Source: a virus
Reading direction: 5' to 3' (one strand)
Virus record (IMG/VR): IMGVR_UViG_3300050821_008190
Coordinates: 1 to 27,630 of that record
Length of the DNA: 27,630 nucleotides
The notes under the pieces are model-generated. The model did no database searches. It saw nothing but the letters and a program-made list of their open reading frames with translations, and had not been told where the DNA came from. Of this stretch, positions 1 through 27,630 are shown piece by piece; the first letter of the stretch is position 1, and each line of letters starts with the position of its first letter. Both the position numbers and the translations under genes were made by a program.

Positions 1-702
1 GATGTCGCAGTCGGTGATCGAGTTGCCGTACATCGGGGTTGAGTCGGTGTTCAGCGAGCCGAGCTGGATGCCGTACCCGCAGTTGTAGATGTAGCAGCCG
101 CGGATGTGGCTGTACTGGGGCATCCGGAGCTGGATCGCCGGCGTGCTGTTGCTGACGGTCCCGGTGTACGAGTTCTGGATGGTGCAGCCTTCGATCACGA
201 GCCCGGTAGGGGATGTGAAGTGGACGAGGCTGTTGCCCGCGGTGGTCTGGTTGGCCTGGTTGCCGTCGAAGGTGAGACCCGGGCCGATCCGAACATTGCT
301 CAGCGCGCTGGTGGCGTTAATGATGGGCGTGGTGGTGGCGGCGGCGAGGATGAGCGTTGCCGCCGCACCGCGGATCGTGGTGCCGCTTACAGCCGGGGCC
401 AGCCCCGAGGAGATCTTGTACGTGCCGGCCGGGATGTAAACGGTTCCGCCGCCGGCGGGGACCGCGTTGAGCGCGTTCTGGATCGCGGCGGTGGAGTCCG
501 CGGTGCCGGTGGGGTCGGCGCCGTACTGGGTGACGACGTTGATCCAGTCGACCACCGCCACCGCCGGGGAATGCACCTGGGCGAGAGTGATCTTCTTCGT
601 CGTCCCGGTGCCGGCCATGCTGATGTCGTCGACGTCGACGACCGGCAGCACATCCGCGGAGGCGGGGGCGGTGATGGCCGTGTACGAGGTGATCTTGCCC
701 AT
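1..702 (-). CDS. Tail spike with pectate-lyase-like beta-helix (partial, N-terminal 234 aa)
   Basis: This gene is read leftward and is cut by the window edge without a stop. The start is the ATG at 702, because an in-frame TGA lies just upstream. The first 45 residues (MGKITSYTAITAPASADV...) look like the short N-terminal domain that attaches actinophage tail proteins to the virion. From about residue 52 comes VVDWINVVTQYGADPTGTAD, the typical entry of pectate-lyase-like right-handed beta-helix spikes, then GTVYIPAGTYKISS and helix rungs with N/G-rich turns (VIEGCTIQNSY, IRGCYIYNCGYGIQLG). Such spikes bind or degrade surface polysaccharide at the virion tip. The nucleotide sequence coding for the beta-helix entry matches the opposite-strand spike at 1347-4052, so the two are paralogues. 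Catalytic residues cannot be assigned. The fold is likely and the substrate unknown. Confidence 0.8.
   Translation of the reverse strand, partial: MGKITSYTAITAPASADVLPVVDVDDISMAGTGTTKKITLAQVHSPAVAVVDWINVVTQYGADPTGTADSTAAIQNALNAVPAGGGTVYIPAGTYKISSGLAPAVSGTTIRGAAATLILAAATTTPIINATSALSNVRIGPGLTFDGNQANQTTAGNSLVHFTSPTGLVIEGCTIQNSYTGTVSNSTPAIQLRMPQYSHIRGCYIYNCGYGIQLGSLNTDSTPMYGNSITDCDI
500..540. repeat. 41-bp inverted repeat, left copy (in leftward spike)
   Basis: Positions 500-540 are the exact reverse complement of 1797-1837. Beyond a 3-base mismatch the match continues for 12 more bases (544-555 against 1782-1793), and partial identity continues on the other side. The repeat encodes the beta-helix entry (NVVTQYGADPTGTA) in both spike genes. 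Because the genes point away from each other, the copies are inverted and enclose about 1.26 kb carrying both 5' ends. Confidence 0.95.
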
Positions 703-751
703 GGCCGTTCAGTCAACTAGACCCAGGCCCCCGACCGCGGGCAGGCGCGCC

Positions 752-1276
752 CTACCGGAACTGGATGTAGGCCACGTCAGGGATCCCGTCGAAGATGATC
801 GGGACCGGCTCATACCCGTACACCTGCGGGGGGACCGGCAGCAGCGCCCACCCGCCGGTGTACACAGCGCCGCCCGCTTCGTCCTGCAGCTCCACCCCGG
901 CTTCGTCCTGCAACGGCAGCCCGGCTTCGTCGAAGATGGTGTCGCCGGTGATCTGCTGGACCTGCCCCGGGATCGTGACGGTGTGCGACCCGGCCGGCTC
1001 GACAGCGTCCACGTCGTCGAGGGGGAGCGACACGGTGACCGGGGAGGTCTGCGGGTTGTAGATCAGCAGCCCGGACCCGACCGCGGGGTACACCCAGTCC
1101 CCCGACACCGGATTGGAGGTCATGTCGACAGGGTGGCCGTCATGGGCGCAGTCCTGCCGCGGGTACGGCCCCGGCGCCGCGGAGGTGATCCCGTAGCCGG
1201 CCTGGTAGGTCCAGTCGTAGACATCCTCGAAGTCGGGGGCCGTACCGGGGATGGCCGGGTCGTTCGGGTTCGGCAT
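752..1276 (-). CDS. Uncharacterised phage protein with DEAG repeats, 174 aa
   Basis: I do not recognise a named family. The reading frame stays open further upstream, but the first 200 codons there are the shadow of the opposite gene. The protein sense begins at MPNPNDPAIPGTAPDF; the ATG at 1276 is chosen, and an ATG four codons earlier (1288) is also possible. The N-terminal part is aromatic (FEDVYDWTYQAGYGITS). The middle reads like a beta-sandwich (VSLPLDDVDAVEPAGSHTVTIPGQ). Near residues 125-150 there are three imperfect DEAG repeats. The C-terminus is Pro/Tyr rich. There is no signal peptide or membrane segment. It lies 49 bases upstream of the leftward spike and probably shares its transcript, which suggests a virion or spike-associated protein. 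Confidence 0.7.
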   Translation of the reverse strand: MPNPNDPAIPGTAPDFEDVYDWTYQAGYGITSAAPGPYPRQDCAHDGHPVDMTSNPVSGDWVYPAVGSGLLIYNPQTSPVTVSLPLDDVDAVEPAGSHTVTIPGQVQQITGDTIFDEAGLPLQDEAGVELQDEAGGAVYTGGWALLPVPPQVYGYEPVPIIFDGIPDVAYIQFR

Positions 1277-1346
1277 GGCACCCAGCATCCCAGCCGCCCG
1301 GCCCGTTAGCCTCCATGTGACGGGCGGGAAACGGCGGTAGTCCGCG
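1277..1346. promoter_or_regulatory. Divergent intergenic region between the leftward and rightward tail genes
   Basis: Seventy bases separate the two divergent starts (1276 leftward, 1347 rightward), so both promoters, if present, must lie here or within the coding ends. The rightward gene has a purine-rich stretch (GGCGGGAAACGGCGG) as a weak ribosome site. No convincing -35/-10 pair is visible. Confidence 0.4.
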
Positions 1347-4052
1347 ATGCCCTGGGTTGTGCCGGCGAACACCCACGCTGTCGGTGACACCGGCCACACC
1401 AACGACCACAACGCGATGGCCACCGACCTGGCCCTCATCGCGGCCGCGCTGCCGGTGGTCAACAGCGGCCTGTCCGGCGCCACCGCCGCGACGAGGTTCG
1501 CGGGCGGCACCGTCTCCGGGGCGCCGAGCTCAGGTGTGTTCGCGACCGGCGACTTCGTCATCGACCAGTCGGGGAACATCTGGATCTGCACCGTCGCCGG
1601 GTCGCCGGGGACGTGGGTGCTGGCCGGGACCGGCGGCGGCGGCACGATGATCAACCCGATGACCACGACCGGGGACCTGATCAAGGCCGGGTCGGGCGGG
1701 TCACCGCAGCGGCTGGGCATCGGGTCTGCCGGGCAGTTCCTGACCGTATCCGGCGGCGCGCCGGCGTGGACGACAGCCGGCGTGGTCGACTGGCTGAACG
1801 TCGTCACCCAGTACGGCGCCGACCCCACCGGCACCGCCGACGCGACGACGGCGATCCAGAACGCCATCAACGCGGGCACCGGCCCGGTGTACCTCCCGGC
1901 CGGGACCTACAAGATCAGCTCACCGCTGACACTGGCCAACGGCACCATCATCATCGGGGACAGCGACGGCGGGTACGGCGGCGCGTACCCCCCAGGCATC
2001 ACCGAGATCACCCTGGCCAGCGGCTCGAACTGCTCGATGATCCTGGCCCCGGCGACGGCGAACTACTGGAAACTGTCCGGCCTGCTGCTCAACGCGAACG
2101 GCGCCGGGCAGGCCGGGCCCGCGCAGACCGGCACGGCCGGGGCGGCGCTCCACGTCGAGGACGGCGGATCACCGGCGGAGCTGCAAGCCGAACTGGACGC
2201 CGTCTACATCGAGGACTCCTACAACGACGGCCTGTATATCGGGCTGAACCGGCGGGCCCTGTACGCGCGCAGGTGCAAGTTCATCGAATCCGGCAAGAAC
2301 GGCTCAACCGTCTACGGCGCCGGCAGCGGGGTCACCTGCAACTACTCCGACCATGTGTTCGACGCCTGCCAGGTCGGCAGTTCCCTGCATCACGGGTACA
2401 ACCTGACCGCCGCCAACGCATCCTCTATCCGGATCACCAACGGGGACATTTACGGCAACGGGCAGGACTGGGCGGCGGTCACCCCGACCACCGTCGCGGC
2501 CGGGTCGAACGGGCAGGCAGTCTCCGGGCTGACCGGCGCCGGGGTCCTCAACGTCGCATCCACCAGCGGGTTCCCGTCGGCCGGGTCGCTGCTGATCAAC
2601 GTGTCCACCGGCCAGGTTGCCGTGTCCTACACCGGGACCAGCGGCGGCAACCAGTTCACCGGGGTGGTCGTATCCGCCACGCAAGGCAACCAGGGCGGCA
2701 CCCTGGCCACCGGCCAGGGGGTGTACCTGCTCGGCGGCGACGCGATCCACGTCGGCTCCCAGTGCTCAGGTATCTACATCGCCGGGAACTCCCTGGACCG
2801 CAACCTGGGCTGCGGCGTGTTCGCGGAAACCTCCGTCGTGGGCGTCAAGATCACCGGCAACCGCTTCACCTCGAACAGTGCCGCCGCTAACGGGCTGCTC
2901 CCGCACCTGATGATGATCAGCCCGCAGGCGAACGGGGTCACGTTCGCCGGGAACGGCGTCGAGCCGCTGGCCAGCGGCTACTCCAACCTTGCCAGTTACG
3001 TCGCGCAGTGCAACGGGACGGGCCGCTGGTACGACGTCGCCAACTCGTGGGCCTCCAGTTACGTTTCCACCGGTTCCTACACCAACCTCGCCGCCGGGCT
3101 GCAGCCGTTCTCCAACGGCACGTTCCTGGTGCAGTCCAACAACACCGGGACCGTCACCCAGCAGGTCAAGGCCCTGTCCGGGCAGACAGCCGACCTGACC
3201 CAGTGGCAGAACAGCGGCGGCACCCCGCTCGCGAAGGTCGATGACACCGGCGCTGTCACCGCGCCGCTGCTGGCGGCCAGCGGGCTCACCGGGGCGGTCG
3301 CCGCGGCCAGGTTCGTGGGCGGCACCGCCTCGGGTGCGCCGACTTCGGGGACGTTCGCCGTCGGCGACTTCGTGATCGACCAGACCGGCCACATTTACAT
3401 CTGCACTACCGCCGGGACGCCGGGCACATGGGCCAACGCCGGGTCCTCCTCGGGGGTGTCGACGTTCAACTCGAGGTCCGGGGCGGTGGTCCCGGGGAAC
3501 GCCGACTACCTCGCGGTGGCCTCGGGTGGGCTGACCGGCGCGACCACCGCCACGAGGTTCGTCGGCGGGACCGCGTCGGCCGCCCCGAGCTCGGGGACGT
3601 TCAGCACGGGCGATTTCGTGGTCACCCAGTCGGGGCTGATCTTCATCTGCACCGCCGGCGGGTCCCCGGGCACATGGAGCAGCGGGTATGCGCTGCTGTC
3701 CGGCGCGACGATGACCGGGTACCTGGCCCCCGCCGTCGTCGCGCTGACGTTCGTCGGGTCCGGCACCACCCTGGTCAACGCCGCGCTGGGGAACGACTTC
3801 CGGCTGACCGTGACCGCGTCGACGACAACGATCGGGAACCCCTCCAACCCGGTGGACGGGCAGCGGATCGACTTCACGATCACCCAAGGCGGCGCCGGGT
3901 CATTCACCGTCGCCTGGGGAGGCAACTACGACTTCGGCGCCGCCGGGACACCCACCTTGTCGACCGCCGCCGGCGCGATCGACATCATCGGGTTCGTCTA
4001 CAACGCCGCCAAGGGCAAATGGCTGGCCCTCGGCGCGGCGTTCGGGTTCTGA
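1347..4052 (+). CDS. Tail spike / fibre with right-handed beta-helix, 901 aa
   Basis: The ATG at 1347 gives an N-terminus (HAVGDTGHTNDHNAMATDLALI) that is typical of actinophage tail proteins and likely anchors it to the baseplate. Residues 42-94 form the first of three similar modules (RF-GGT-S-AP-SG-F--GDFV-DQSG-I-ICT--G-PGTW); the others are near residues 647-699 and 729-780. From about residue 147 (VVDWLNVVTQYGADPTGTAD) to about 560 is a pectate-lyase-like beta-helix with GTYKISS and repeated G/N-rich turns. After the helix come VSTFNSRSGAVVPGNADY, a phage-fibre motif, and a C-terminal beta domain (MTGYLAPAVVAL... to FVYNAAKGKWLALG) common at fibre tips. The role is receptor or polysaccharide recognition, possibly with cleavage. 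It is paralogous to the leftward spike. The stop at 4050-4052 lies three bases before the next gene. Confidence 0.85.
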   Translation: MPWVVPANTHAVGDTGHTNDHNAMATDLALIAAALPVVNSGLSGATAATRFAGGTVSGAPSSGVFATGDFVIDQSGNIWICTVAGSPGTWVLAGTGGGGTMINPMTTTGDLIKAGSGGSPQRLGIGSAGQFLTVSGGAPAWTTAGVVDWLNVVTQYGADPTGTADATTAIQNAINAGTGPVYLPAGTYKISSPLTLANGTIIIGDSDGGYGGAYPPGITEITLASGSNCSMILAPATANYWKLSGLLLNANGAGQAGPAQTGTAGAALHVEDGGSPAELQAELDAVYIEDSYNDGLYIGLNRRALYARRCKFIESGKNGSTVYGAGSGVTCNYSDHVFDACQVGSSLHHGYNLTAANASSIRITNGDIYGNGQDWAAVTPTTVAAGSNGQAVSGLTGAGVLNVASTSGFPSAGSLLINVSTGQVAVSYTGTSGGNQFTGVVVSATQGNQGGTLATGQGVYLLGGDAIHVGSQCSGIYIAGNSLDRNLGCGVFAETSVVGVKITGNRFTSNSAAANGLLPHLMMISPQANGVTFAGNGVEPLASGYSNLASYVAQCNGTGRWYDVANSWASSYVSTGSYTNLAAGLQPFSNGTFLVQSNNTGTVTQQVKALSGQTADLTQWQNSGGTPLAKVDDTGAVTAPLLAASGLTGAVAAARFVGGTASGAPTSGTFAVGDFVIDQTGHIYICTTAGTPGTWANAGSSSGVSTFNSRSGAVVPGNADYLAVASGGLTGATTATRFVGGTASAAPSSGTFSTGDFVVTQSGLIFICTAGGSPGTWSSGYALLSGATMTGYLAPAVVALTFVGSGTTLVNAALGNDFRLTVTASTTTIGNPSNPVDGQRIDFTITQGGAGSFTVAWGGNYDFGAAGTPTLSTAAGAIDIIGFVYNAAKGKWLALGAAFGF
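1797..1837. repeat. 41-bp inverted repeat, right copy (in rightward spike)
   Basis: This is the exact reverse complement of 500-540. It codes for the same beta-helix entry peptide. The pair could support homologous inversion of the DNA between them. Confidence 0.95.
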
Positions 4053-14081: not shown

Positions 14082-14255
14082 ATGACCCCGTACGTCTGGT
14101 TCCACGGTGCGCCACCCGTCTGGTTCCACGGTGCGCCACCCACGCGTGCCGCGGCCGCCGGTTTCCCGCCGTCGCTCATCATCGCCGTCGTCCTCGCCCT
14201 CGCCCTGGCCGCGACCGTCTCGCTGCTGCTGCGCCGCCGCGCTGTCCCGGCCTGA
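14082..14255 (+). CDS. Small single-span membrane protein with duplicated motif, 57 aa
   Basis: The ATG at 14082 has AGGAGG about eight bases upstream. Residues 5-20 are an exact tandem duplication of VWFHGAPP. Residues about 30-50 (SLIIAVVLALALAATVSLLL) form one membrane helix followed by RRR, consistent with an inner-membrane protein whose C-terminus is cytoplasmic. No family is recognised. It has its own promoter and terminator and so is a separate expression unit. A holin is conceivable, but no endolysin is nearby. Confidence 0.65.
   Translation: MTPYVWFHGAPPVWFHGAPPTRAAAAGFPPSLIIAVVLALALAATVSLLLRRRAVPA
14094..14141 (+). repeat. Exact 24-bp tandem duplication
   Basis: Bases 14094-14117 and 14118-14141 are identical and in frame, encoding VWFHGAPP twice. 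No silent differences are present, so the duplication is recent or maintained. Confidence 0.97.
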
Positions 14256-14675: not shown

Positions 14676-14909
14676 ATGGCGGTCAAGGCGGGCAAGAACA
14701 CCGTGTACGTCCGGGACGACGACGTGGCCAGGATCAGCCGGTCCGGGCTGAGCATCATGGGGCTGGCCCGCGAGTCCCTCGACCTCCGCGACCGGCTCAC
14801 CACGGCGCTGACCCCAGCCGGGGACGGGTGCAGGCACCCGAAGAACATGCGGGACACCAAGAACGGCTCCCGCTGCCGGTGCGGCGCGATCGGCCTCGAC
14901 CCGAAGTGA
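14676..14909 (+). CDS. Small protein with Cys cluster, 77 aa
   Basis: The ATG at 14676 is chosen over upstream in-frame codons because the sense (MAVKAGKNTVYVRDDDVARI) starts here. TACTCT lies six bases upstream, so it may be leaderless. The C-terminus has GCRHPKNMRDTKNGSRCRCG, a possible C-H-C-C metal site. The stop overlaps the GTG start of the large terminase (GTGA), implying translational coupling. Small Cys-rich genes just before the large terminase are common in actinophages; the function is unknown. Confidence 0.7.
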   Translation: MAVKAGKNTVYVRDDDVARISRSGLSIMGLARESLDLRDRLTTALTPAGDGCRHPKNMRDTKNGSRCRCGAIGLDPK

Positions 14910-16561
14910 CCATCACCCTCCCGGTGGCGGGGCCGGTGTCGCCGCTGCTGTCGATCCCCGGTTTGAAGGTGCCGGCGTTCGCGTCGATCCCCGAGTACCA
15001 CGACACCTTGGGTGACGAGGCGATCGACTTCAACCGGGAAGTGTGCGGGCTGTACCCGGACCCGCAGCAGGAACTCGCCATCAACATCATCTTCGCCCGC
15101 GACAAGCGGGGCCGGTCCGCGGCGTTCTCCGCCACGCTGATCGCCGCCCGGCAGATGCTGAAGACCGGCGTGTTCAAGATGGTGGTCCTGCCGTGGCTGT
15201 ACCTGTTCGAGGAACCGATGATCACCTGGTCCGCGCACCGCGCCGAAACGTCGTTTGCGGCGCAGGAGGACCTGGAGAAGATCATCGACGCGTCCGACAC
15301 GCTCCGGCGGGCCACCCGCCGGTTCGTCCACGGGAACGGCGCCGAGGCGATCGAAACGGTTTCACGGTGCAAGGTCTCCTTCCGGACCCGGACCAAGACC
15401 GGGGGGAAGGGCCTGTCCGCGAACAAGGTGATCCTCGACGAGGCGTTCGCCCTGCAGCCGCTGCACATGGGCGCGTTGCTGCCCACCCTGACCGCTATGC
15501 CTGACCCGCAGGTGCTGTACGGGTCGTCGGCGGCGATGGAAGATTCCGTGGTTCTGCACGAGAAGATCGAATCGGGGCGGCCCGGCACCGAACGGGACTG
15601 GGGCACCGACCAGCCGCTCCACCGCCTCGTCACCGGGCCGATGGCCGCGGCGTATCTGGAGTGGTGCGCGCCGCCGCCGGAGATCGCCTGCGACGCCGGG
15701 ACGGCCTGCACCCACGCCCGCACGGCGGCGGGGTGCGGGTGCGACAAGGCGGAATGGCTGCTGCGCGCCAACCCGGCGGTCGGCCCGGCTGAGCTGATCG
15801 GCACCCGCGGCGGCCCCCGGTCCACGATGGATTACCTGATCGCCGAACGGAAAGAGCTCCCCGCCCTGGAGTACGCGAGGGAGCGGATGGGGTGGCATGA
15901 GAAGGCCCGCGCGGGGGCGTCCCCGATCCCGATGACGATGTGGTACGGGCCGTGCTCGGACCGGGAGTCCACCCCCGCGGCCGGGTCGGCGCTGGCTTTG
16001 GCGATCGCGGTGGCCAAGGACAAGTCGATGGCGGCGATCGCGCTGGCCGGGTGGCGGCCGGACGGGCTGCCGCACGGGGAGCTGGTCGAGCACCTGCCCG
16101 GCACCGGGTGGCTGATGGACCGGCTGCTGGGGATCGTGGGGCGCCGGAAGCCGTGCTGTGTGGTGATGGACCCCCGCGGGCCGGCGGGCGGGTTCGAGAA
16201 GGCGTTGCGCCTCAACGGGTTCCGGACCGTCCCGAAGACCCCGTCGAACGCGTGGATGGTGGACCGGCCGCCGCCGGTAGCCGAGGGGAACCATGTCCTG
16301 ATGGTGGTGTCGTCGGTGGAGGACGCGCAGGCGTGCAACATGCTGGCCGACCGGGTGATCGAGGGGACGTTCCGGCATCCGGACCAGGGCCCGTTGAACA
16401 TTGCGGTGCGGGATGCCCGGTCGCGGCCGGTGGGGCAGTCGTGGGCGTGGGATGAGGACACCGGGAAGGACGTCACCCCGGTCAAGGCGGTCACCCTGGC
16501 GCAGATCGGGCTCGCCACGTACGGGGCGAAAAGCACGCTGACCCCGTTCGCGATGTTCTGA
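14906..16561 (+). CDS. terL: Large terminase subunit, 551 aa
   Basis: The GTG at 14906 overlaps the previous stop; the open frame before it is a shadow. The ATPase half has a degenerate Walker A (AARQMLKTG, residues 80-88) as in many HK97-type terminases, Walker B VILDEA (D178, E179) and the coupling motif YGSSA. The nuclease half shows VAKDKSMAAIALAG (about 370-383), VVMDPRGPAGGFEKAL and a final SWAWDEDTGKDVTPVKAVTL segment. The product packages DNA by docking at the portal, encoded 0.6 kb downstream. Unusually, the first RNase H-fold aspartate, expected where the sequence reads AIAVAKDKS (Ala368), appears to be alanine. The length is normal for the family. Confidence 0.88.
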   Translation: MTITLPVAGPVSPLLSIPGLKVPAFASIPEYHDTLGDEAIDFNREVCGLYPDPQQELAINIIFARDKRGRSAAFSATLIAARQMLKTGVFKMVVLPWLYLFEEPMITWSAHRAETSFAAQEDLEKIIDASDTLRRATRRFVHGNGAEAIETVSRCKVSFRTRTKTGGKGLSANKVILDEAFALQPLHMGALLPTLTAMPDPQVLYGSSAAMEDSVVLHEKIESGRPGTERDWGTDQPLHRLVTGPMAAAYLEWCAPPPEIACDAGTACTHARTAAGCGCDKAEWLLRANPAVGPAELIGTRGGPRSTMDYLIAERKELPALEYARERMGWHEKARAGASPIPMTMWYGPCSDRESTPAAGSALALAIAVAKDKSMAAIALAGWRPDGLPHGELVEHLPGTGWLMDRLLGIVGRRKPCCVVMDPRGPAGGFEKALRLNGFRTVPKTPSNAWMVDRPPPVAEGNHVLMVVSSVEDAQACNMLADRVIEGTFRHPDQGPLNIAVRDARSRPVGQSWAWDEDTGKDVTPVKAVTLAQIGLATYGAKSTLTPFAMF

Positions 16562-17135: not shown

Positions 17136-18581
17136 GTGGCAGGGATGGTAGACCGGGTGCGGGGACGGGCCGCATCCCTGTACGGGACCCGAGGCGACAC
17201 GCCGGCATCGCAGGTGTCGATGCGGGACATGTCGATCTCGCTGGACGAATGGGCCAGCTACTTCAGTTTTGGTGGCTTGACCTATCCGCTGATCCAAACC
17301 ACGATGGGCAGCGTCGACAAAGAGCGGATTGTCGGCAACGCGATCGCCGCGTTCGAGGGTGTCTCGTCGGTGTTCTCGCTGATCCAGGCGCGGGTGCAGG
17401 TGTTCGCGCAGATCCGGTTCCAGTGGACGAGGTTCTCGGGTGCGATGCCCGGTGACCTGTTCGGCACCGACGACCTGCGGGTGCTGGAGAAGCCGTGGCC
17501 GAACGGGCACACCGCCCAGCTGCTCGCCAAGATGGAGATCGACAACTCGATCGGCGGCAACGCGTACATTGTGCGGCCGCGGAAGGACCGGCTGGCTAGG
17601 TTGCGGCCGGACCTGGTGACGATCTGCCTCGGGTCGGAGTACGACATGGAGTCCCCCGCCGACGCCCCCGACGTGGAGGTCGCCGGGTACGCGTACTTCC
17701 CGCGGTCGGGGAAGCCGGAGTGGTTCTGGCCGTGGGAGATCGCCCACTACGCCCCGCTGCCGGACCCGAACTTCCAGTTCCTGGGGCTGTCGTGGATGAC
17801 GCCGTGCCTGCGGGAGATCCAGGCTGACGCGTTGACCACCGAGCACAAGTACCGGTTCTTCGCGAACGCGGCCACCCCGAACATGGCCATCAAGTTTGAC
17901 CCGTCCGTCGGGATCGAGCAGGTCAGAGCATTCAAGGAGCTGGTGGAGAACGAGCATAGGGGCGCGTTCAACGCCTACAGGACCTTGTATCTGGGCGGCG
18001 GCGCTGACCCGGTGCCGATCGGCACCAACTTGCAGCAACTCGACTTCGCGGTCACCCAAGGGCACGGCGAAGCACGCCTCGCCGCGGCCGCCGGGGTGCC
18101 GGCGTCGTGGGTCGGGTTCTCCGAAGGTCTCCAGGGCAGCAGCCTGAACGCGGGGAACTTCAACGCCCAGCGCCGCCGGCTGATGGACGGCACGATGCCG
18201 CACCTGTGGACCGCCGCCGCGAACGCTCTCGAAGCGGTGGTGCCGCCGCCGGACTCCCACGCGAACCTGTGGTACGACACGCGGATCCCGCCGATGCGGG
18301 AAGACGCCCAGGACATCGCGACGATCCAGCAGCTGCAGTCGCAGGTGATCTCCGCGTATGTGATGCAGGGGTTCACGCCGGAGTCGGCGGTCAAGGCGGT
18401 CGCGAACAACGACATCAGCCTGCTGAAGCATTCGGGGGCGATGTCGGTGCAGCTGCATAAGCCCGGTGAGGGGCCGCTGCCGCTGGCCTCCGGGAACGGC
18501 GCCAAGCCGAAAGCCGGGGCGGGCGCCGCGAACGGCAACTCGGCCACCGGCGGCGGGGGATCTCAGTCAGCCACCGGGTAG
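17136..18581 (+). CDS. Portal protein, HK97 gp3-like, 481 aa
   Basis: The GTG at 17136 has AAGGAG six bases upstream. The sequence shows the family's hallmarks: VSSVFSLIQARVQVFAQIRF near the N-terminus, HTAQLLAKMEIDNSIGGNAY (the portal wing/stem entry), NFQFLGLSWMTPCLREI, QGHGEARLAAAAGVPASWVG, and SLNAGNFNAQRRRLMDGTMP. The last 45 residues are a disordered Gly/Ala/Ser tail. Twelve copies would form the ring at the capsid vertex through which DNA is packed. The length is usual. The position between large terminase and protease-capsid gene is the canonical HK97-type order. Confidence 0.92.
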   Translation: MAGMVDRVRGRAASLYGTRGDTPASQVSMRDMSISLDEWASYFSFGGLTYPLIQTTMGSVDKERIVGNAIAAFEGVSSVFSLIQARVQVFAQIRFQWTRFSGAMPGDLFGTDDLRVLEKPWPNGHTAQLLAKMEIDNSIGGNAYIVRPRKDRLARLRPDLVTICLGSEYDMESPADAPDVEVAGYAYFPRSGKPEWFWPWEIAHYAPLPDPNFQFLGLSWMTPCLREIQADALTTEHKYRFFANAATPNMAIKFDPSVGIEQVRAFKELVENEHRGAFNAYRTLYLGGGADPVPIGTNLQQLDFAVTQGHGEARLAAAAGVPASWVGFSEGLQGSSLNAGNFNAQRRRLMDGTMPHLWTAAANALEAVVPPPDSHANLWYDTRIPPMREDAQDIATIQQLQSQVISAYVMQGFTPESAVKAVANNDISLLKHSGAMSVQLHKPGEGPLPLASGNGAKPKAGAGAANGNSATGGGGSQSATG

Positions 18582-18816: not shown

Positions 18817-18936
18817 GCCCCCTGATCCTGCCGGATGTACCGGCGTGCCCGGCCTGGTTTCCGGTGTTCAGCGGGGCACGGCGGTACGGTGGTGGCCAGC
18901 GGCGGGCAGCCAGCGACCTGTAAGCGGGAAGGGCGC

Positions 18937-21900
18937 ATGACAGCCTCGGACACGCGGCGGGTCCGCCGGGCGCTCGACGGTGACCGTACCGTCACGGCCA
19001 CGCGGGCTTTCCCGCTTGATGACATCCGGGTCCTGAGCCGGGCGCAAGGCGGTGACGGCCGCACCGTTGAGGCGTACGCGGCGGTGTTCCTGCGGCCCAC
19101 CGAGATCATGGACCAGGACGGCCACTACAACGAGCAGATCGACCCGCACGGGTTCGACAAGACGTTGCAGCAGCGCCGCAAGCAGGTGTTCTGCGTCTAC
19201 AACCACGCCAAGAGCCTGGGCGGCACCCCGTCGGACATGTGGTCGGTGCCGGTCGGGACGCCGCTGCCCGGCAACGAGGGGATCCGCGCTGACGCCAGGG
19301 GGCTGCTGACCGTCACCCGGTACAACACCGACCCGGCCTCAGACCGGATCCTGGAAGCGATCAAATCCGGGTCGCTGACCGGGATGTCGTTCACCGGGGT
19401 GTTCCTCCGCTCCGACCCGGAGCTGACCGGCCCGTGGGCGGAGTACGGCCCGAACCGGATGGGTGAGCTGCCGCTGGTGAACCGCTTGGAGATCGCCCTG
19501 ATCGAGTACGGCGCCACCCCGATCCCGGCCTATGAGGACGCGATGATCGTCGGGGTCCGGAACCGGGATCCGGAGCGGGAGTCGATCCGGATCCTGACGC
19601 CCGACGTGATCCGCGCCATGGACGGGCAGCACGCTGAGTCCGCGCAGGACGACGCCGCCCGGGCGCTGACCATGGGTGACGGGCCCCGGCTGACGCCGCA
19701 GCAGGGGCAGGAACCGTCGGGGGTCATCCACCCCGACGTGAAGGCCACCCCGGCGCACAAGGCTGGCACGCTGGTCACTCCCGACGACCCGCACGAGGCC
19801 AAATGGGATTCGCAGCAATGGCTGAACGGGATGACGTTCCCCGCCGACCTGCAGCACATGCATTCGGTGTATGCGCTGTATGACACGTCGGGGCAGTTCG
19901 CGGACGGGACGTTCCCCCGGACGGCGGGGTACCTGCCGCACCACGTGGTCGACGGTGACGGGCGGCCCGGCGCGGCGCACCCGGACGCGGTGCAGGAGGC
20001 GCTGGACAAGCTGGATGTGCTGCCCGTCACCGACGAGGCTAAGGCGGCCGCGCGGAAGCACCTGGAGGGTCACATGGCCGAGGACGACACCGCCGACTCC
20101 GAGGTTGATGTCACCCACGGGCCGTCGTCGAACGCGACGAACGGGTCCGGCACCGGTCAGCTGGCCTCGGTCGTACCGACCTCGAGCTCCGTCCGCGACG
20201 ACGAAACCGCCGAGCACGAGCGCGCCGAGGACGAGGACGCTGGCGGACAGGCGCGGACAGATCAGGACACGCAGGCCGAGGATGAGCAGCACCAGCGCGC
20301 CGACACCTGGACCGGGCAGATGCGCGCGGCCGACGAGTACGCCCAGGCGGTGCTGGAGGTTACCGGGGACGGCCCCGCGGCTGCCAACGCGGGCCTGCGT
20401 CTGCTGATGGGCCTGGTGGCGGGCCGGTCATTTGACCCGGACCATGACGGCGACAACGACGCCACCGCAGCCGGCGACACCGACCACGACTACTGGGACG
20501 CCGACGGGACCCAGAAGAAGGCGGTCCCCGGCAAGCCGATGGAGAGCCGCGGCGGTGACGCGCCCGGCGACGGCTCCAAGCCCTACGGGAACGTCAAGTA
20601 CGCCGACAACGGGCTGCAGGAAGACGGCAAGAAGCGGTACCCGCTCGACACCGACGAGCACATCAAATCCGCCTGGGAGTTCATCAACGAGGAGAAGAAC
20701 GCGGCGAAGTACAAGCCGGCGGACCTGGCCACGGTCAAGGCCGCGATCAAAGCCGCGATGAAGGGACACGGCCACGACGTTTCCGAAGACGACACGTCTG
20801 GTGATAAAAAGAGCACCAGCAGTTCCGGCAGGCAGCCCGCCACCCAGGACTCCACGGAGCGATCCGGGAGCACCGAGGGTACGGACCCGCCAGAGCCTGA
20901 GACTGCGACTGATGACGCCGCGCCGCGCCAAGATGCGCACCCGGCTCCCGACAGCAACGCCACACGCACCACTGGGAGTACGGCTATGGACGGCCCGATG
21001 AAGGTCGCAGAACGCAAGCAGCGCCTCGAGGAGATCCGGGACCGGATGAAGGTCCTGCACGCCCTCGCCCCGGACGGGGACCTGCCCGCGGAGTTCACCG
21101 CGGAGTGGACGTCCCTGTCGGAGGAGATGACCCGGCACGACACGGCGATCAAGGACGCCGCCACCAGGGCCGCGATGGTCGCCTCCTTCACCAGCAAGGA
21201 AGGCGCCCCGGACCCGGCCGCCACCGAGGGGACCGGCAACACCGCCGGGTTCACCGGCGGCCAGGAAGGTGGCCAGGAAGGCGCCCCCGCGCACCGTAAC
21301 GGCAGCAACGGTGACCGGGGGACCCCGCAGTTCATGCGGCGCCCTGGCCGGTCGGACCGGGACATGGCCTGGTACGACCCGGGCCTGATCGCGATGCGGG
21401 CCGGTGACATGACTCAGGCCCGCACCCAGCTCCGCGACCGCGCCATGTACGTGCTGGAGGAAGGGTCCTTCCCCGCCGCGGGCAGGGTGCCGCACAACCG
21501 GCCCGAGGACGGCCGGATGTCCAACCTGACGGTGGAGGACTGCCAGAGCCGGGTCTCGCAGCTGCTCGACTCGATCGACGGGCCGCAGAAGAACGGTGAG
21601 GGCGGCGGGGTCCTGGCCCGCAGGATCATCGCGACCGGCAACCCGGTCTATGAGGACGCGTTCGGGTTGTGCCTGGAGCGGCTCTCGTCCGTGGGCCTGA
21701 CCGAGGCGCAGTCCCGTGCCCTCGCGCTGGGTGTCGACCCGTTCGGTGGTTACGCGGTCCCCTACCAGCTGGACCCGACGATCATCCTCACCTCCAATGG
21801 TGCGATCAACCCGATCCGGCAGCTCGCCCGGGTCGAGACGATCACAGGCAAGGAATGGGATGGCGTCACCTCCGCCGGCGTCGTGGTGTCGAGGGCGGCT

Positions 21901-22614
21901 GAAGGTGCTGAGGTCGGCACCGGCGACGCCCAGCTGGTCCAGCCCACGGTGCGCACCACCCGGGTGCAGGGTTTCGTGCCGTTCTCCGTGGAACTGGACG
22001 TCTCCTGGGGTGCCCTCCGCAGTCAGATGACCGGCCTGCTGATGGACGCCAAGGACGTCGAGGAAGCCACCTCGTTCATCACCGGGAACGGGGTCGCCCC
22101 CAACGTCAACGGCCTGGTCTACTCCGTGTCGTCGCAGTCCGCATCGGTAGGAACCGCCTCCACCGTCTACACCGCCGGGACGGGCGCCCTAGCGGTGGCC
22201 GACCTGTACTCGCTGGAAAACGCGATGGCCCCCCGGTTCCGGCAGCAGTCCGGGTACCTGGCCTCCCGGACGATTTACAACAAGTTCCGGCAGCTGTTCC
22301 AGGCCCTCGCGTCGGCCGCGTTCGACTCCTGGGTGCGCCCGTCCGCTGGGCAGCCGGCCACCTTCAACGGCTACCCGGCTTATGAAGTGTCGTCGATGAC
22401 CGGGACGATCGCGTCGGGGCAGTACGCGATGCTGCAGGGCGACTTCAAGCAGTACATCATCGTCGACCGGGTCGGGATGGGGATCGAGTTGATCCCGCAT
22501 CTGTTCGGGCCGACGAACAGGTACCCGACAGGTCAAAGGGGCATCCTGGCGATCTGGTTTAACAACGGCCAGCTGCTCGCCGCGAACGCGTTCCGGCTGC
22601 TCGAGATCACCTAG
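18937..22614 (+). CDS. Prohead protease-scaffold-major capsid fusion, 1225 aa
   Basis: The ATG at 18937 follows GGGAAGGG; upstream codons are not protein-like. Residues about 20-215 match the HK97 prohead protease (S78), with the likely catalytic His90 in CVYNHAKS and Ser151 in LTGMSFTG. Residues about 278-380 form a second module (KWDSQQWLNGMTFPADLQHM, then GYLPHHVVDGDG and KAAARKHLEGHM) seen in other phage protease proteins. Acidic linkers follow. Residues about 550-612 resemble the DUF6582 module (KKRYPLDTDEHIKSAWEFIN, then AAIKAAMKGHGHDVSEDD). Residues about 684-760 are a coiled-coil delta-type scaffold (RKQRLEEIRDRMKVLHAL). Residues about 930-1225 are an HK97-type shell (DPFGGYAVPYQLDPTIILTS to RGILAIWFNNGQLLAANAFR). 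Protease-capsid fusions are known; this one is exceptionally long and has several inserted domains. Cleavage should release the shell. Confidence 0.9.
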   Translation: MTASDTRRVRRALDGDRTVTATRAFPLDDIRVLSRAQGGDGRTVEAYAAVFLRPTEIMDQDGHYNEQIDPHGFDKTLQQRRKQVFCVYNHAKSLGGTPSDMWSVPVGTPLPGNEGIRADARGLLTVTRYNTDPASDRILEAIKSGSLTGMSFTGVFLRSDPELTGPWAEYGPNRMGELPLVNRLEIALIEYGATPIPAYEDAMIVGVRNRDPERESIRILTPDVIRAMDGQHAESAQDDAARALTMGDGPRLTPQQGQEPSGVIHPDVKATPAHKAGTLVTPDDPHEAKWDSQQWLNGMTFPADLQHMHSVYALYDTSGQFADGTFPRTAGYLPHHVVDGDGRPGAAHPDAVQEALDKLDVLPVTDEAKAAARKHLEGHMAEDDTADSEVDVTHGPSSNATNGSGTGQLASVVPTSSSVRDDETAEHERAEDEDAGGQARTDQDTQAEDEQHQRADTWTGQMRAADEYAQAVLEVTGDGPAAANAGLRLLMGLVAGRSFDPDHDGDNDATAAGDTDHDYWDADGTQKKAVPGKPMESRGGDAPGDGSKPYGNVKYADNGLQEDGKKRYPLDTDEHIKSAWEFINEEKNAAKYKPADLATVKAAIKAAMKGHGHDVSEDDTSGDKKSTSSSGRQPATQDSTERSGSTEGTDPPEPETATDDAAPRQDAHPAPDSNATRTTGSTAMDGPMKVAERKQRLEEIRDRMKVLHALAPDGDLPAEFTAEWTSLSEEMTRHDTAIKDAATRAAMVASFTSKEGAPDPAATEGTGNTAGFTGGQEGGQEGAPAHRNGSNGDRGTPQFMRRPGRSDRDMAWYDPGLIAMRAGDMTQARTQLRDRAMYVLEEGSFPAAGRVPHNRPEDGRMSNLTVEDCQSRVSQLLDSIDGPQKNGEGGGVLARRIIATGNPVYEDAFGLCLERLSSVGLTEAQSRALALGVDPFGGYAVPYQLDPTIILTSNGAINPIRQLARVETITGKEWDGVTSAGVVVSRAAEGAEVGTGDAQLVQPTVRTTRVQGFVPFSVELDVSWGALRSQMTGLLMDAKDVEEATSFITGNGVAPNVNGLVYSVSSQSASVGTASTVYTAGTGALAVADLYSLENAMAPRFRQQSGYLASRTIYNKFRQLFQALASAAFDSWVRPSAGQPATFNGYPAYEVSSMTGTIASGQYAMLQGDFKQYIIVDRVGMGIELIPHLFGPTNRYPTGQRGILAIWFNNGQLLAANAFRLLEIT
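20974..20988 (+). promoter_or_regulatory. Internal ribosome site and ATG (20986) for a capsid-only product
   Basis: GGGAG (20974-20978) lies seven bases before the in-frame ATG at 20986 (residue 684), which begins MDGPMKVAERKQRLEEI exactly at the scaffold-capsid boundary. Initiation would make a 542-aa delta-domain-plus-shell protein. Another in-frame ATG at 20074 (residue 380) has GGAGGG four bases upstream. Confidence 0.55.
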
Positions 22615-23530: not shown

Positions 23531-23791
23531 ATGGATCAGAAACCGAGCGTCTGCCGGGCCGTGCATTACGTCTCCTACGGCACCCCAGGCGGCGAGTACA
23601 CCAGCGAATGCCGGGCCGCGACGATCACCGAGGTGCCGGAGCTGCTGCTGGCCGAGGACACCACCGGCGGCCAGGTCCCGGTCGGGTTGTGCGTCATGAA
23701 CCCGACCGGGCTGTTCTTCATCCGGTCGGTCCCCTATGACGGCTCCGCGGCACCGGCGGGCGGCACCTGGCACTGGCCGGAGCGGGTGTGA
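23531..23791 (+). CDS. Small conserved-looking actinophage protein (WHWPE-type), 86 aa
   Basis: The ATG at 23531 has GGGAG five bases upstream. The sequence RAVHYVSYGTPGGEYTSECR, CVMNPTGLFFIRSVPYD and the terminal GTWHWPERV form a pattern I recall from many actinophage genomes, without a known role. Conserved Cys, His and Trp residues suggest a small structural fold. The stop overlaps the GTG start of the glycosyltransferase gene (GTGA), so it heads the sugar cassette. Confidence 0.75.
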   Translation: MDQKPSVCRAVHYVSYGTPGGEYTSECRAATITEVPELLLAEDTTGGQVPVGLCVMNPTGLFFIRSVPYDGSAAPAGGTWHWPERV

Positions 23792-25059
23792 CCCGCTGGC
23801 TGCTGCACGGTAATTACCCCGACGTCGGGTCCGGGTACGGGACGCAGCTGGGGTACCTGGCGGAGATGCTCGCCGGCCTGTACGGGCGGGAGAACATCGC
23901 GATCTCCGCGTTCCACGGGATCTCCGGGTTCGTGTCCGACCCGGCCAAGGGCGGCGGGTGGCACGGGATGCGGGTGTACCCGGTGGGGCAGGACGCCTAC
24001 GGCGGTGACATCGTCGGGATGCACGGCACCCACTTCAAAGCGGACATCATCTTGTCGCTGATGGACAACTGGGCGCTGCACCATCAGACGCTGGTCGGGA
24101 AGCGCCATGTGGCGTGGATGCCGATCGACTGCTCCAACCCGGACGTCCCCGCGATGTCCCTCGGGCTGCATGACACGAACCGGCTGCTGGCCAACCCGGG
24201 GACGGTGGTGCTGGCCATGTCGCAGTTCGGGTACGACGTTATGCAGGAGGCCCGGAAGGCGCTGCTGCTGCCCAACCCGGTGTTCTACGTGCCCCACATG
24301 ATCGACACGGGCACGTTCCGGCCCGTCGACCCGGCCACCCGCGGCGCGATCCGGAAGGGCTTGAAGATCGACGACCGGTTCGCGGTCCTGACCATCGCCG
24401 CGAACCGGGATAAGTCCCGGAAGAACTACGCGCACATGGCCCGGGCGGTGCTACGCGCGTTGAAGGGTGACCCGCGGCGCCAGATCCCGGCGTGCCCGGA
24501 CCTGATCTGGATCCTGCACACCGAGGAGTCCAACCCCCGCGGCCACGACCTGAAGATGCAGTTCGACCGGGTGGGGCTGCCGAAGACGGCGTACCGGTTC
24601 TCCGCGCAGTACCCGCAGGCGATCGGGGAGATCGAGGACTGGCGGCTGGCCGGGACGATGGCCGCCGCCGACGTCGGGTTCCAGGCGTCCCTGGCCGAGG
24701 GGTTCGGCCTGCCGAACGCCGAAGAAATGAGTTGCGGGACCCCTGTCATAGCGACGGCCGGGTCCGCGATGACCGAGGTCGTCGGCAAAGGCGGCTGGCT
24801 GGTCAAGGGGCAGCCGCACTGGGCGACCGGCCACGAATCCTACTGGGTGGAACCGGACCACGACGGCATGGTGCGGGCGTTGCGGGACGCCTATGCCAAG
24901 GGCCGCTCCTACCAGGCGAAGAAAGCCGCCGCCCGCCCCCACATCGAGCAGAATTACGCCCTGGATGTGGTGCGGGACACCCACTGGGCGCCCACCCTGA
25001 AATCCCTCCACGACCACTTCGGGTTGCCAGATGACCGCCGCCAGATCATCGCGGACTAA
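23788..25059 (+). CDS. GT-B glycosyltransferase, GT4-like, 423 aa
   Basis: The GTG at 23788 overlaps the previous stop. The N-terminal half has a nucleotide-binding-fold opening (WLLHGNYPDVGSGYGTQLGY) and VAWMPIDCSNPDVPA. The C-terminal half has FAVLTIAANRDKSRKNYAHM and the diagnostic E-x7-E region ASLAEGFGLPNAEEMSCGTP, which binds the donor nucleotide-sugar in GT4 enzymes. It would transfer a sugar from an activated donor to an unknown acceptor in the cytoplasm; no membrane segment is visible. It overlaps the next gene by 29 bases. The acceptor could be a virion protein, nucleotide or cell-surface precursor. Confidence 0.85.
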   Translation: MTRWLLHGNYPDVGSGYGTQLGYLAEMLAGLYGRENIAISAFHGISGFVSDPAKGGGWHGMRVYPVGQDAYGGDIVGMHGTHFKADIILSLMDNWALHHQTLVGKRHVAWMPIDCSNPDVPAMSLGLHDTNRLLANPGTVVLAMSQFGYDVMQEARKALLLPNPVFYVPHMIDTGTFRPVDPATRGAIRKGLKIDDRFAVLTIAANRDKSRKNYAHMARAVLRALKGDPRRQIPACPDLIWILHTEESNPRGHDLKMQFDRVGLPKTAYRFSAQYPQAIGEIEDWRLAGTMAAADVGFQASLAEGFGLPNAEEMSCGTPVIATAGSAMTEVVGKGGWLVKGQPHWATGHESYWVEPDHDGMVRALRDAYAKGRSYQAKKAAARPHIEQNYALDVVRDTHWAPTLKSLHDHFGLPDDRRQIIAD

Positions 25060-25714
25060 TAAAACTAATAACCCGCCGTTGTGGTCGATCCTGATTGCGA
25101 CGCTGGCGTCGCGCCGGGACCGCCTCGCCGAGCTGCTCGGGGTGCTGCTGCCGCAGTGCGACGCTGACGGGCGGGTTGAGGTGATCGCCTGCTGGGACAA
25201 CGGGGAGCGTTCCCTGGCCAGCAAACGGCAGGCGCTCCTCGCTGAGGCCGCCGGCACCTGGGTGTCGTATTGCGATGACGACGACATGGTCGACGGCGAG
25301 TTCGTCCGCGAGGTGACCGCGGTGATGCTGCCCGCCGCCCCCGACATGGTGGCGTTCCGGCACGCCTATTACGTCGACGGGCACCTGAACGCCACGATCG
25401 TGACCGGCCTGCAGTACGGGCAGCCCCGCACGGACGGCGGGGAGATCATCCGGCCGGTCACCCACATCCAGCCGATCCGCCGGGTGCTGACCGCGGGGGT
25501 GTCGTTCGGCCGGTCGGACATGGGGGAGGACCGGGCCTATGTGCTGCAGGTGTGGCCGCGGCTGAAAACCCAGATGGACGCGGGGGATGGCCGGCCCCTG
25601 TATCACTACCGGCACAACCCCAACGATTCTGTCCAGCGGGCCCTGGCGCCGCATACGGGCCTGGCCAGGCTGGATGTCACCTCACCCTGTTTCCGATGGA
25701 TCGAGGCCTCATGA
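25031..25714 (+). CDS. GT-A glycosyltransferase, GT2-like, 227 aa
   Basis: The ATG at 25031 lies within the end of the previous gene; the short AT-rich N-terminus (TNKTNNPP) precedes the fold, and a TTG at 25079 is an alternative. The core begins WSILIATLASRRDRLAELLG, the usual GT2 first strand, followed by CWDNGERSLASKRQALLAEA and WVSYCDDDDMVDGEFV, where the Asp cluster is the DxD-type metal-sugar site. The C-terminal part (SFGRSDMGEDRAYVLQVWPR, YHYRHNPND) includes an ED pair typical of the acceptor-side base. It overlaps the methyltransferase gene (ATGA). Confidence 0.85.
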   Translation: MTAARSSRTNKTNNPPLWSILIATLASRRDRLAELLGVLLPQCDADGRVEVIACWDNGERSLASKRQALLAEAAGTWVSYCDDDDMVDGEFVREVTAVMLPAAPDMVAFRHAYYVDGHLNATIVTGLQYGQPRTDGGEIIRPVTHIQPIRRVLTAGVSFGRSDMGEDRAYVLQVWPRLKTQMDAGDGRPLYHYRHNPNDSVQRALAPHTGLARLDVTSPCFRWIEAS

Positions 25715-26328
25715 ACCGGCTGCCGTTGACGTTGCTGGATGACTACCGGGAGCGGCTCACCGACCCGGGCACCGAGCGGGAACCGAACGACATCAAGGAT
25801 GAGATGCCGTACCTGCTGGGTGCGGCGTCGGGGTACACCAAGTGCCGGGTGCTGGAGCTCGGGGTGCGGACGGGCCGGTCGACGTCGGCGTTCCTGACCG
25901 CGGCCGCCCGGACCGGCGGGCATGTGTGGTCCGTTGACGTGAACGAGCCGGTGGTCCCGGCGCAGTGGGCCGACAGCGGGTACTGGACGTTCAAACGGGC
26001 CAGCGACATGGATGTGGTTCCCGAGATCGAGGGGTGGCCCGCCTCGTACCACGTGCTGTTCATCGACACGTCCCACCAGCGGGCCCACACCCTGGCTGAG
26101 CTGCGGAAGTTCGTGCCGTACGTGGAGCCCGGCGGGGTGGTGCTGTGCCACGACACCAAGCTCCCCGGCCGTGAGGTGGCCTTGGCCCTCGACGAGTTCT
26201 GCGGCGACTACCACCAGCAGGCGCGGGAGATGCCGTGGCGGCCGGGGCTGTTCACCCCACCGGAGGCCAGGTGGATGGAGCGGGGCGGCTGGTGCGGCCT
26301 CGGCGTCCTGGAGAAGCCGAATGGTTGA
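25711..26328 (+). CDS. Class I SAM-dependent methyltransferase, 205 aa
   Basis: The ATG at 25711 overlaps the previous stop (ATGA). The glycine-rich SAM loop is VLELGVRTGRSTSAF (about residues 47-61), followed by HVWSVDVNEP with the acidic ribose-binding residue. Later come YHVLFIDTSHQRAHTLAELR and FVPYVEPGGVVLCHDTKLPG, matching the Methyltransf_24 / CmcI-like group that often modifies sugars or glycans. It sits between two glycosyltransferases, so O-methylation of the sugar they add is the likely role. The acceptor is not known. Confidence 0.85.
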   Translation: MNRLPLTLLDDYRERLTDPGTEREPNDIKDEMPYLLGAASGYTKCRVLELGVRTGRSTSAFLTAAARTGGHVWSVDVNEPVVPAQWADSGYWTFKRASDMDVVPEIEGWPASYHVLFIDTSHQRAHTLAELRKFVPYVEPGGVVLCHDTKLPGREVALALDEFCGDYHQQAREMPWRPGLFTPPEARWMERGGWCGLGVLEKPNG

Positions 26329-27070
26329 GGTGGCCGGGGCGTCCGGGTCGGGGATTTCCGCCGCCCCCGTCCTGCTGGTCTGCCCCACCCGCGCCCGGGC
26401 CGGGAACGCGAGGCGGCTGATCGACACGTGGGGCCGCACCGGTGTGTGCTCGGACCTGATCTTCTGCGTCGACGACGACGACCCTCAACTGCCCGCCTAC
26501 CGGGCCCTGATGGGTGAGCGGATGTTTCACCGGGGGGTTGTGACGTGGCTGCGCGGGCCGCGGATGTCGTTGTGCGGCTGGACCGACCTGGTGGCCGCCG
26601 AATACGCGCCCCGGTACCAGGCGCTCATGTCGATCGGTGATGACCACGTCCCCGAAACCGGCGCGTTCGACCTGAAGCTGTACGACGCCGCCGCCATCGA
26701 CGGCGGCGGGTTCGCCTATGGCGACGACGGGGTCCAGCATGAGAACCTGCCGACCGCCTGCCTGATCACCACCAACATCCTCCGCGCTTTGGCCGGCCCG
26801 GACGGCAAGCCGAGGATGTGCCTGCCCGGCGCCAGGCACATGTTCACCGACGCGTACTGGCGGGACCTGGCCGCCGCCGCCGGGTGCCGCTACTACCTGC
26901 CGCACGTGTCGGTGCGTCACCTGCATCACATCACCCGCGCGTCGGTCCGGGACCAGACCTACCTCGACGGGGAAGCGTCCTGGGCTGCTGATGAGGCCGT
27001 GTACCGGGCGTGGCTAGCCGACCGGATCGGGTTCGACGCCACCATCGTCAAGGAGGTTATCGGACAGTGA
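26321..27070 (+). CDS. GT-A type glycosyltransferase-like protein, 249 aa
   Basis: The ATG at 26321 overlaps the methyltransferase stop by eight bases. The protein begins APVLLVCPTRARAGNARRLI, then LIFCVDDDDPQLPAYRALMG, and YQALMSIGDDHVPETGAFD with a second acidic cluster, the arrangement of a GT-A fold. GGFAYGDDGVQHENLPTACL and the His-rich VSVRHLHHITRA fit an acceptor and metal-binding C-terminal region. It resembles glycosyltransferase-like proteins of actinophages rather than classical GT2. Its stop overlaps the next gene (GTGA). Confidence 0.75.
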   Translation: MVEVAGASGSGISAAPVLLVCPTRARAGNARRLIDTWGRTGVCSDLIFCVDDDDPQLPAYRALMGERMFHRGVVTWLRGPRMSLCGWTDLVAAEYAPRYQALMSIGDDHVPETGAFDLKLYDAAAIDGGGFAYGDDGVQHENLPTACLITTNILRALAGPDGKPRMCLPGARHMFTDAYWRDLAAAAGCRYYLPHVSVRHLHHITRASVRDQTYLDGEASWAADEAVYRAWLADRIGFDATIVKEVIGQ

Positions 27071-27630
27071 TTTGGGACACCGTGATGTACCGGGATGAAG
27101 ACGCGATGCTCGAGGTGCGCCTCGAAGCGTGCAGCGGGTTCGACGTCACCCACGTGCTGACCGAGGCCCCCTGGACCCACCGGGGGATCCCGAAGCCGCT
27201 GCACTTCGCTGAGTGCCTGCAAGGCACCCCGGAAACGAACGCCGCCTACCTCAAAGAACTGCGGATCGCCCACATCGTCGACGACTGGCAGCCCGACGTG
27301 TACCCGTGGGTGAACGAGCATCACCAGCGGAACCGGGCGTGGCCGCTGATCGACTCGGCCGCCGATGATGATGACTGGGTGCTGATCTGCGACCTGGACG
27401 AGATCCCCTCCCCGGAGCTGCTCGGATGGCTGGCCAAGTACCCGGGCCGGTTCGGGCCGGTGTTCCAGGTGCCGATGCGGACATACCTGTTCGCCGTCGA
27501 CTGGGCGGCCGGTGTCCTGCCAACCTGCGTGGTCGCCGCGGCCGGGTGGCTGCGGGAGCAGGCGAAGGACGGCAACTACCTCGCGGAGGTCCGGGACAGC
27601 CGCTCCCGGTGGGAGACGGTCCACGTGTTC
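27067..27630 (+). CDS. GT17-like glycosyltransferase (partial, first 188 aa)
   Basis: The GTG at 27067 overlaps the preceding stop, and the frame is open to the window edge. The start, IWDTVMYRDEDAMLEVRLEA, followed by VTHVLTEAPWTHRGIPKPLH, is the signature opening of family GT17 (beta-1,4-N-acetylglucosaminyltransferase-like), and DDDDWVLICDLDEIPSPEL carries its DxDE metal site. YLKELRIAHIVDD and NEHHQRNRAW also fit. The family adds GlcNAc or related sugars to glycans; bacterial and phage members are mostly uncharacterised. It is the fifth enzyme of the cassette. The C-terminus is outside the window. Confidence 0.85.
   Translation, partial: MIWDTVMYRDEDAMLEVRLEACSGFDVTHVLTEAPWTHRGIPKPLHFAECLQGTPETNAAYLKELRIAHIVDDWQPDVYPWVNEHHQRNRAWPLIDSAADDDDWVLICDLDEIPSPELLGWLAKYPGRFGPVFQVPMRTYLFAVDWAAGVLPTCVVAAAGWLREQAKDGNYLAEVRDSRSRWETVHVF

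Follow-up and report, generated by a model that had tools for sequence, protein, structure and literature searches.

Bacteriophage Mu expresses one set of tail fibres at a time. In bifidobacterial prophages, the Rin system combines a flanking tyrosine recombinase, 11-bp sites and several silent C-terminal cassettes, with inversions detected in reads, and these prophages also possess an inverted locus that lacks a recombinase (PMC6109161). At the spnIII locus, long repeats support inversion without a local recombinase or RecA (PMC6620402), and the modularity of phage spikes through exchange of anchors and helices is established (PMC6872550). Here we describe two divergent spike genes of an uncultured phage that share an exact 41-bp inverted repeat, which the original prediction took for a possible spike-swapping switch. 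Our analyses lead us to conclude that the repeat is probably DNA that encodes a conserved protein module carried by two back-to-back mosaic spikes, and hence a product of ordinary spike mosaicism.

Genomic setting of the spike pair

The window, by which we mean the whole stretch of DNA analysed, is a linear IMG/VR virus record of 27,630 bases with a GC content of about 70%, and it holds an incomplete phage genome. The tail-spike genes lie at its left edge, and the features that concern us are as follows.

1-702, minus strand: spike A (5' part only), an ORF from an ATG at 702 that runs off the contig start
456-555 (minus) against 1782-1881 (plus): extended entry-module homology, 100 nt, 88% complementary
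500-540, minus strand: left copy of the 41-bp repeat, exact match, in spike A
752-1276, minus strand: ORF of 174 aa that shares the strand of spike A and lies upstream of it, within the hypothetical invertible segment
1277-1346, no strand: 70-bp intergenic region separating the divergent transcription units of the two spikes
1347-4052, plus strand: spike B, 901 aa, ATG at 1347
1797-1837, plus strand: right copy of the 41-bp repeat, exact match, in spike B
14870-16561: terminase
17136-18581: portal
18835-22614: joint prohead protease and capsid ORF

The host of this phage is probably an actinobacterium, because the closest described portals come from Gordonia, Rhodococcus and Mycobacterium phages (approximately 40% identity to the window portal). 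The ORF at 18835-22614 is a single frame of 1259 aa with S78 prohead protease, DUF6582 and HK97-type capsid domains, and represents either a protease-capsid fusion or a frame with an internal start that is not resolved. Directly past this capsid region, positions 23788-27630 contain a run of sugar-modification genes encoding a group-1 glycosyltransferase, a GT2-like protein (below cut-off), a Methyltransf_24 protein and a GT17-family protein that is cut by the contig end. Between 5286 and 11491, a GntR-family regulator on the minus strand comes before small ORFs and a protein resembling FtsK/SpoIIIE (the PHROG match is weak), a gene set that recalls actinobacterial plasmids or integrative elements and possibly reflects phage-plasmid traits. 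A 24-bp exact tandem duplication (14093-14140) is found within an ORF upstream of the terminase.

Spike A is cut by the contig start such that 234 aa are visible, comprising a short anchor (aa 1-49) and then the beta-helix entry from VVDW on. Spike B possesses a long anchor (aa 1-145), a beta-helix entry from aa 146 and a tail-fibre-like C-terminal part. Both belong to the PF12708 (Pect-lyase_RHGA_epim) beta-helix tail spikes, with matches at 3e-17 (spike A, aa 53-124) and 3e-14 (spike B, aa 149-207) and bit scores of 63.5 and 53.7 in the two spikes, above the curated cut-off of 27, and receptor-binding or depolymerase activity is predicted for them. PHROG 2234 (tail spike) is matched at 9e-16 by spike A and at 2e-8 by the other spike, and the PHROG matches of spike B include tail spike and tail fibre families. 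No known relatives were recovered when the 174-aa ORF that separates the spikes was used as a query, and no promoter-like or terminator-like site was found in 1277-1346. Spike B also contains a 168-nt (56-aa) unit in three copies of approximately 73% identity, one located 5' of the beta-helix (1456-1623) and two past it (3271-3438 and 3517-3684).

A repeat at the joint between anchor and helix

The two copies of the 41-mer (AACGTCGTCACCCAGTACGGCGCCGACCCCACCGGCACCGC) are exact reverse complements, as confirmed by sequence match, and encode the residues NVVTQYGADPTGTA, which in each gene fall within the N-terminal (entry) portion of the PF12708 match. Pfam and PHROG matches agree with the original prediction that the repeat lies within the beta-helix entry of two oppositely oriented spike genes, and the two copies are indeed in the same codon phase, each beginning on a codon boundary (codon 55 of spike A, counted from ATG 702, and codon 151 of spike B, counted from ATG 1347). 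A gapped match around this core reaches approximately 135-145 nt at 81% identity. Homology between the two spikes ends abruptly upstream of VVDW, with none detected upstream of the VVDW codons, and fades downstream. A repeat search of the window recovered only these two entry copies and no set of silent C-terminal cassettes marked by a short recurring site.

Given that only 500 bp separate the repeat from the left end of the contig, and that a repeat of 41 bp can confuse low-k assembly steps, the wrong arms may have been joined across it, in which case the true pairing of anchors and helices may be reversed. We regard such a phase error as very improbable: reads and final k-mers are usually longer than 41 bp, and the distinct flanks on both sides of both copies mean that the repeats are real in any pairing. 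A chimera generated by MDA leaves a single repeat copy at its junction, and this origin was set aside given the two copies with distinct flanks seen here.

We searched viral contigs in three scans that used the spikes or their entry segment as queries and found that high-GC phages repeatedly carry the module DW[LIV]N-[VA]VTQ[YF]GADPTG, which stands behind several unrelated anchors. It follows a TTxGDLI-type anchor, like the TTTGDLI segment of spike B, in record L200 (41% GC), an anchor like the THAVGDTGHTNDHN start of spike B in records L106 and L196, and SxxTPPxxFHVTD-type anchors in records L102, L190 and L197. In record L198, an A-like anchor (DVLPIVDISDHSMDASGSTRKITIANL) precedes a different entry and the GADPTG module forms a second entry further inside; exact runs against the 41-bp core reach 26 bp in other records, the longest being in this one. 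The tested records that carry the closest entry modules have no detectable homologue of the window portal, and the module DNA in the best of them is 76-88% identical. Two such records reach 88% over 73-76 nt, the same value as for the two copies within the window, and the module is thus a common joint of spike mosaics. Because the module occurs behind various anchors and in phages without a portal relative, the repeat is best read, from these comparisons, as lying at a joint between modules that is in wide reuse, not at a dedicated recombination site. By blastn, the Arthrobacter phages Tillums and Swim match 103 bp of the entry module at 74% identity; tblastn searches of phage records with each spike gave no match at 1e-5, and a degenerate DNA pattern for QYGADPTGTAD matched no other viral contig.

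Among the within-contig pairs of entry segments compared, the sole other inverted one, in record L146 (22 bp shared), was rejected as a parallel since it joins a spike-like gene to a partner whose N-terminus resembles a lipoprotein signal peptide. Separately, one record (L187, 4326-8540) is the circular 87.9-kb Streptomyces plasmid NZ_CP109440.1, a probable phage-plasmid; besides phage tail genes it encodes a tandem pair of beta-helix spikes whose anchors are nearly identical.

Before inverted repeats within homologous tail genes are called switches, they have to be set against a null at the codon level. Dinucleotide shuffles, which are the wrong null for coding homologues, give 0 expected chance matches for the 41-mer. 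In a codon null in which aligned residues were fixed and codons were drawn independently from the window's codon usage, the longest run had a median of 14 nt and a 95th percentile of 23, and the probability of a run of at least 41 was 3.4e-4; pure chance is rejected under both. The 41 bp are likewise the longest exact run among 34 within-contig entry-segment pairs (runner-up 23), a sample that includes some pairs from overlapping or near-identical contigs and consists mostly of lower-GC phages and mostly of tandem pairs. A run that exceeds both codon bias and the other pairs calls for recent shared ancestry, duplication or conversion. Synonymous identity at shared-residue codons is 16/16 in VVDW plus the core compared to 18/29 downstream (Fisher P 0.004, post hoc, with the boundary picked after viewing the data), as expected of an exchange that ends at the joint. 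When a run of 16 identical codons was permitted anywhere in the homologous stretch, permutations gave P 0.041, and the local excess of the 41 bp over its 88%-identical surroundings is borderline.

Spike mosaicism would account for these observations as follows. The module, VVDW[IL]NVVTQYGADPTGTAD, would span the linker to a PF12708-type beta-helix together with the helix entry, and in the sampled phages it is the joint that fuses different virion anchors to different receptor-binding helices. One of the two spikes may have gained its helix or its anchor fairly recently by duplication, conversion or recombination inside this joint, and recent exchange together with a strong GC-rich codon bias would have left 41 exact bases. 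We count in favour of mosaicism that in both genes the 41 bp fall within the region matched by PF12708 and that the module recurs behind other anchors, and against mosaicism alone that 41 exact bases exceed codon bias and that repeated inversion would also homogenise the copies. More generally, the mosaic make-up of spikes can give rise to long exact repeats where anchor meets helix.

Consequences of inverting the segment

Inversion of positions 541-1796 in silico yielded an A-anchor plus B-helix frame of 805 aa and a B-anchor plus A-helix frame that is open to the contig end, both without internal stops. The arithmetic of the original prediction was therefore right in that an inversion of approximately 1.26 kb would exchange the anchors in frame. 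As the copies are inverted, occasional homologous inversion is possible, and RecA-type or phage single-strand-annealing recombination could from time to time invert the 1.26 kb and swap the anchors; a low-rate, homology-driven swap of this kind is thus conceivable from the layout of the locus. Its effect on host range is uncertain, because both spikes stay complete and only the pairing of anchor and helix changes.

We next consider whether homologous recombination inverts 541-1796 often, without programming, so that both pairings occur in populations and the 41 bp are kept identical. The in-frame products and the presence of exact identity precisely where non-homologous anchors meet homologous helices are compatible with this. 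However, 41 bp is short for RecA-type recombination, mismatches and a gap break the downstream homology, and the completeness of both spikes in either orientation leaves no clear selective consequence. Neither the opposite arrangement nor an inverted junction was present among the viral contigs and records compared. Recombinase-independent inversion is documented at pneumococcal spnIII, with frequencies per colony of a few percent or higher, but the repeats there are 85 and 333 bp and a 15-bp repeat at that locus needed CreX (PMC6620402). We therefore consider an active switch of this type unlikely, and it is a little less likely still that the spike pair swaps anchors by recombinase-independent inversion with the conserved protein joint doubling as the recombination site.

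Site-specific inversion by a recombinase located elsewhere on the phage or in the host, akin to Gin, Cin, Min or Rin, is extremely improbable. The incompleteness of the phage genome in the window leaves room for such an enzyme, a tyrosine recombinase/integrase domain is present in several of the portal relatives, and actinobacterial phages are known to harbour both the Rin tyrosine-recombinase shufflon of receptor-binding proteins and an inverted locus without an adjacent recombinase (PMC6109161). Against this, the Resolvase family (PF00239) had no match in the window or in 12 relatives while positive controls matched, and Phage_integrase (PF00589) had no match in the window, in keeping with the original statement that no recombinase is visible in the contig. 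The 41 bp contain no internal dyad symmetry, the best partial dyad being 7/12, and the coding sequence of a common motif fully explains the repeat. With recombinase, dyad and cassettes all absent in the window, Mu-like or Rin-like programmed inversion was rejected.

Neither orientation was seen in a relative: the 30-bp centre of the repeat is absent from all other IMG/VR viral contigs searched, and the 18 portal-relative records contain no PF12708 gene. That the repeat acts as a switch is not supported, given a motif that is near-identical at the DNA level in phages without a portal relative, the lack of site-specific features and the lack of an inverted junction or alternative orientation in the records compared. 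Overall, support for a switch is partial at most and nothing points to a programmed or frequent one; the 41-bp repeat, as the widely shared start of a putatively sugar-binding helix, would permit spike parts to be swapped by accident and is not evidence of a built-in switch.

Comparison with described systems

The likeness to the Mu G segment is a loose one. As in Mu G and P1 C (Gin, Cin; PMC6109161), inverted repeats lie in oppositely oriented tail genes, whereas here no invertase or recombination site was found and both spikes would stay complete either way. Rin and the recombinase-less locus of bifidobacterial prophages (PMC6109161) resemble our locus in belonging to actinobacterial phages, and inversion there swaps parts of receptor-binding proteins; by contrast, the window is without a tyrosine recombinase, 11-bp sites and silent cassettes, and no inversion was found. 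The spnIII hsdS locus of Streptococcus pneumoniae (PMC6620402) likewise has inverted repeats inside coding modules, but these are 85 and 333 bp in length, lie in different genes and have measured switching. Where two spikes diverge as they do here, the joint could enable a phage to rearrange the parts that bind its receptor, with no enzyme devoted to the task. PF12708 beta-helix phage spikes and depolymerases with exchangeable anchors, such as the receptor-binding proteins of Klebsiella phages (PMC6872550), share with our pair an architecture of anchor and beta-helix modules and exchange near the anchor-helix boundary, and in contrast to them the two divergent spikes described here share an unusually long exact stretch at that joint.
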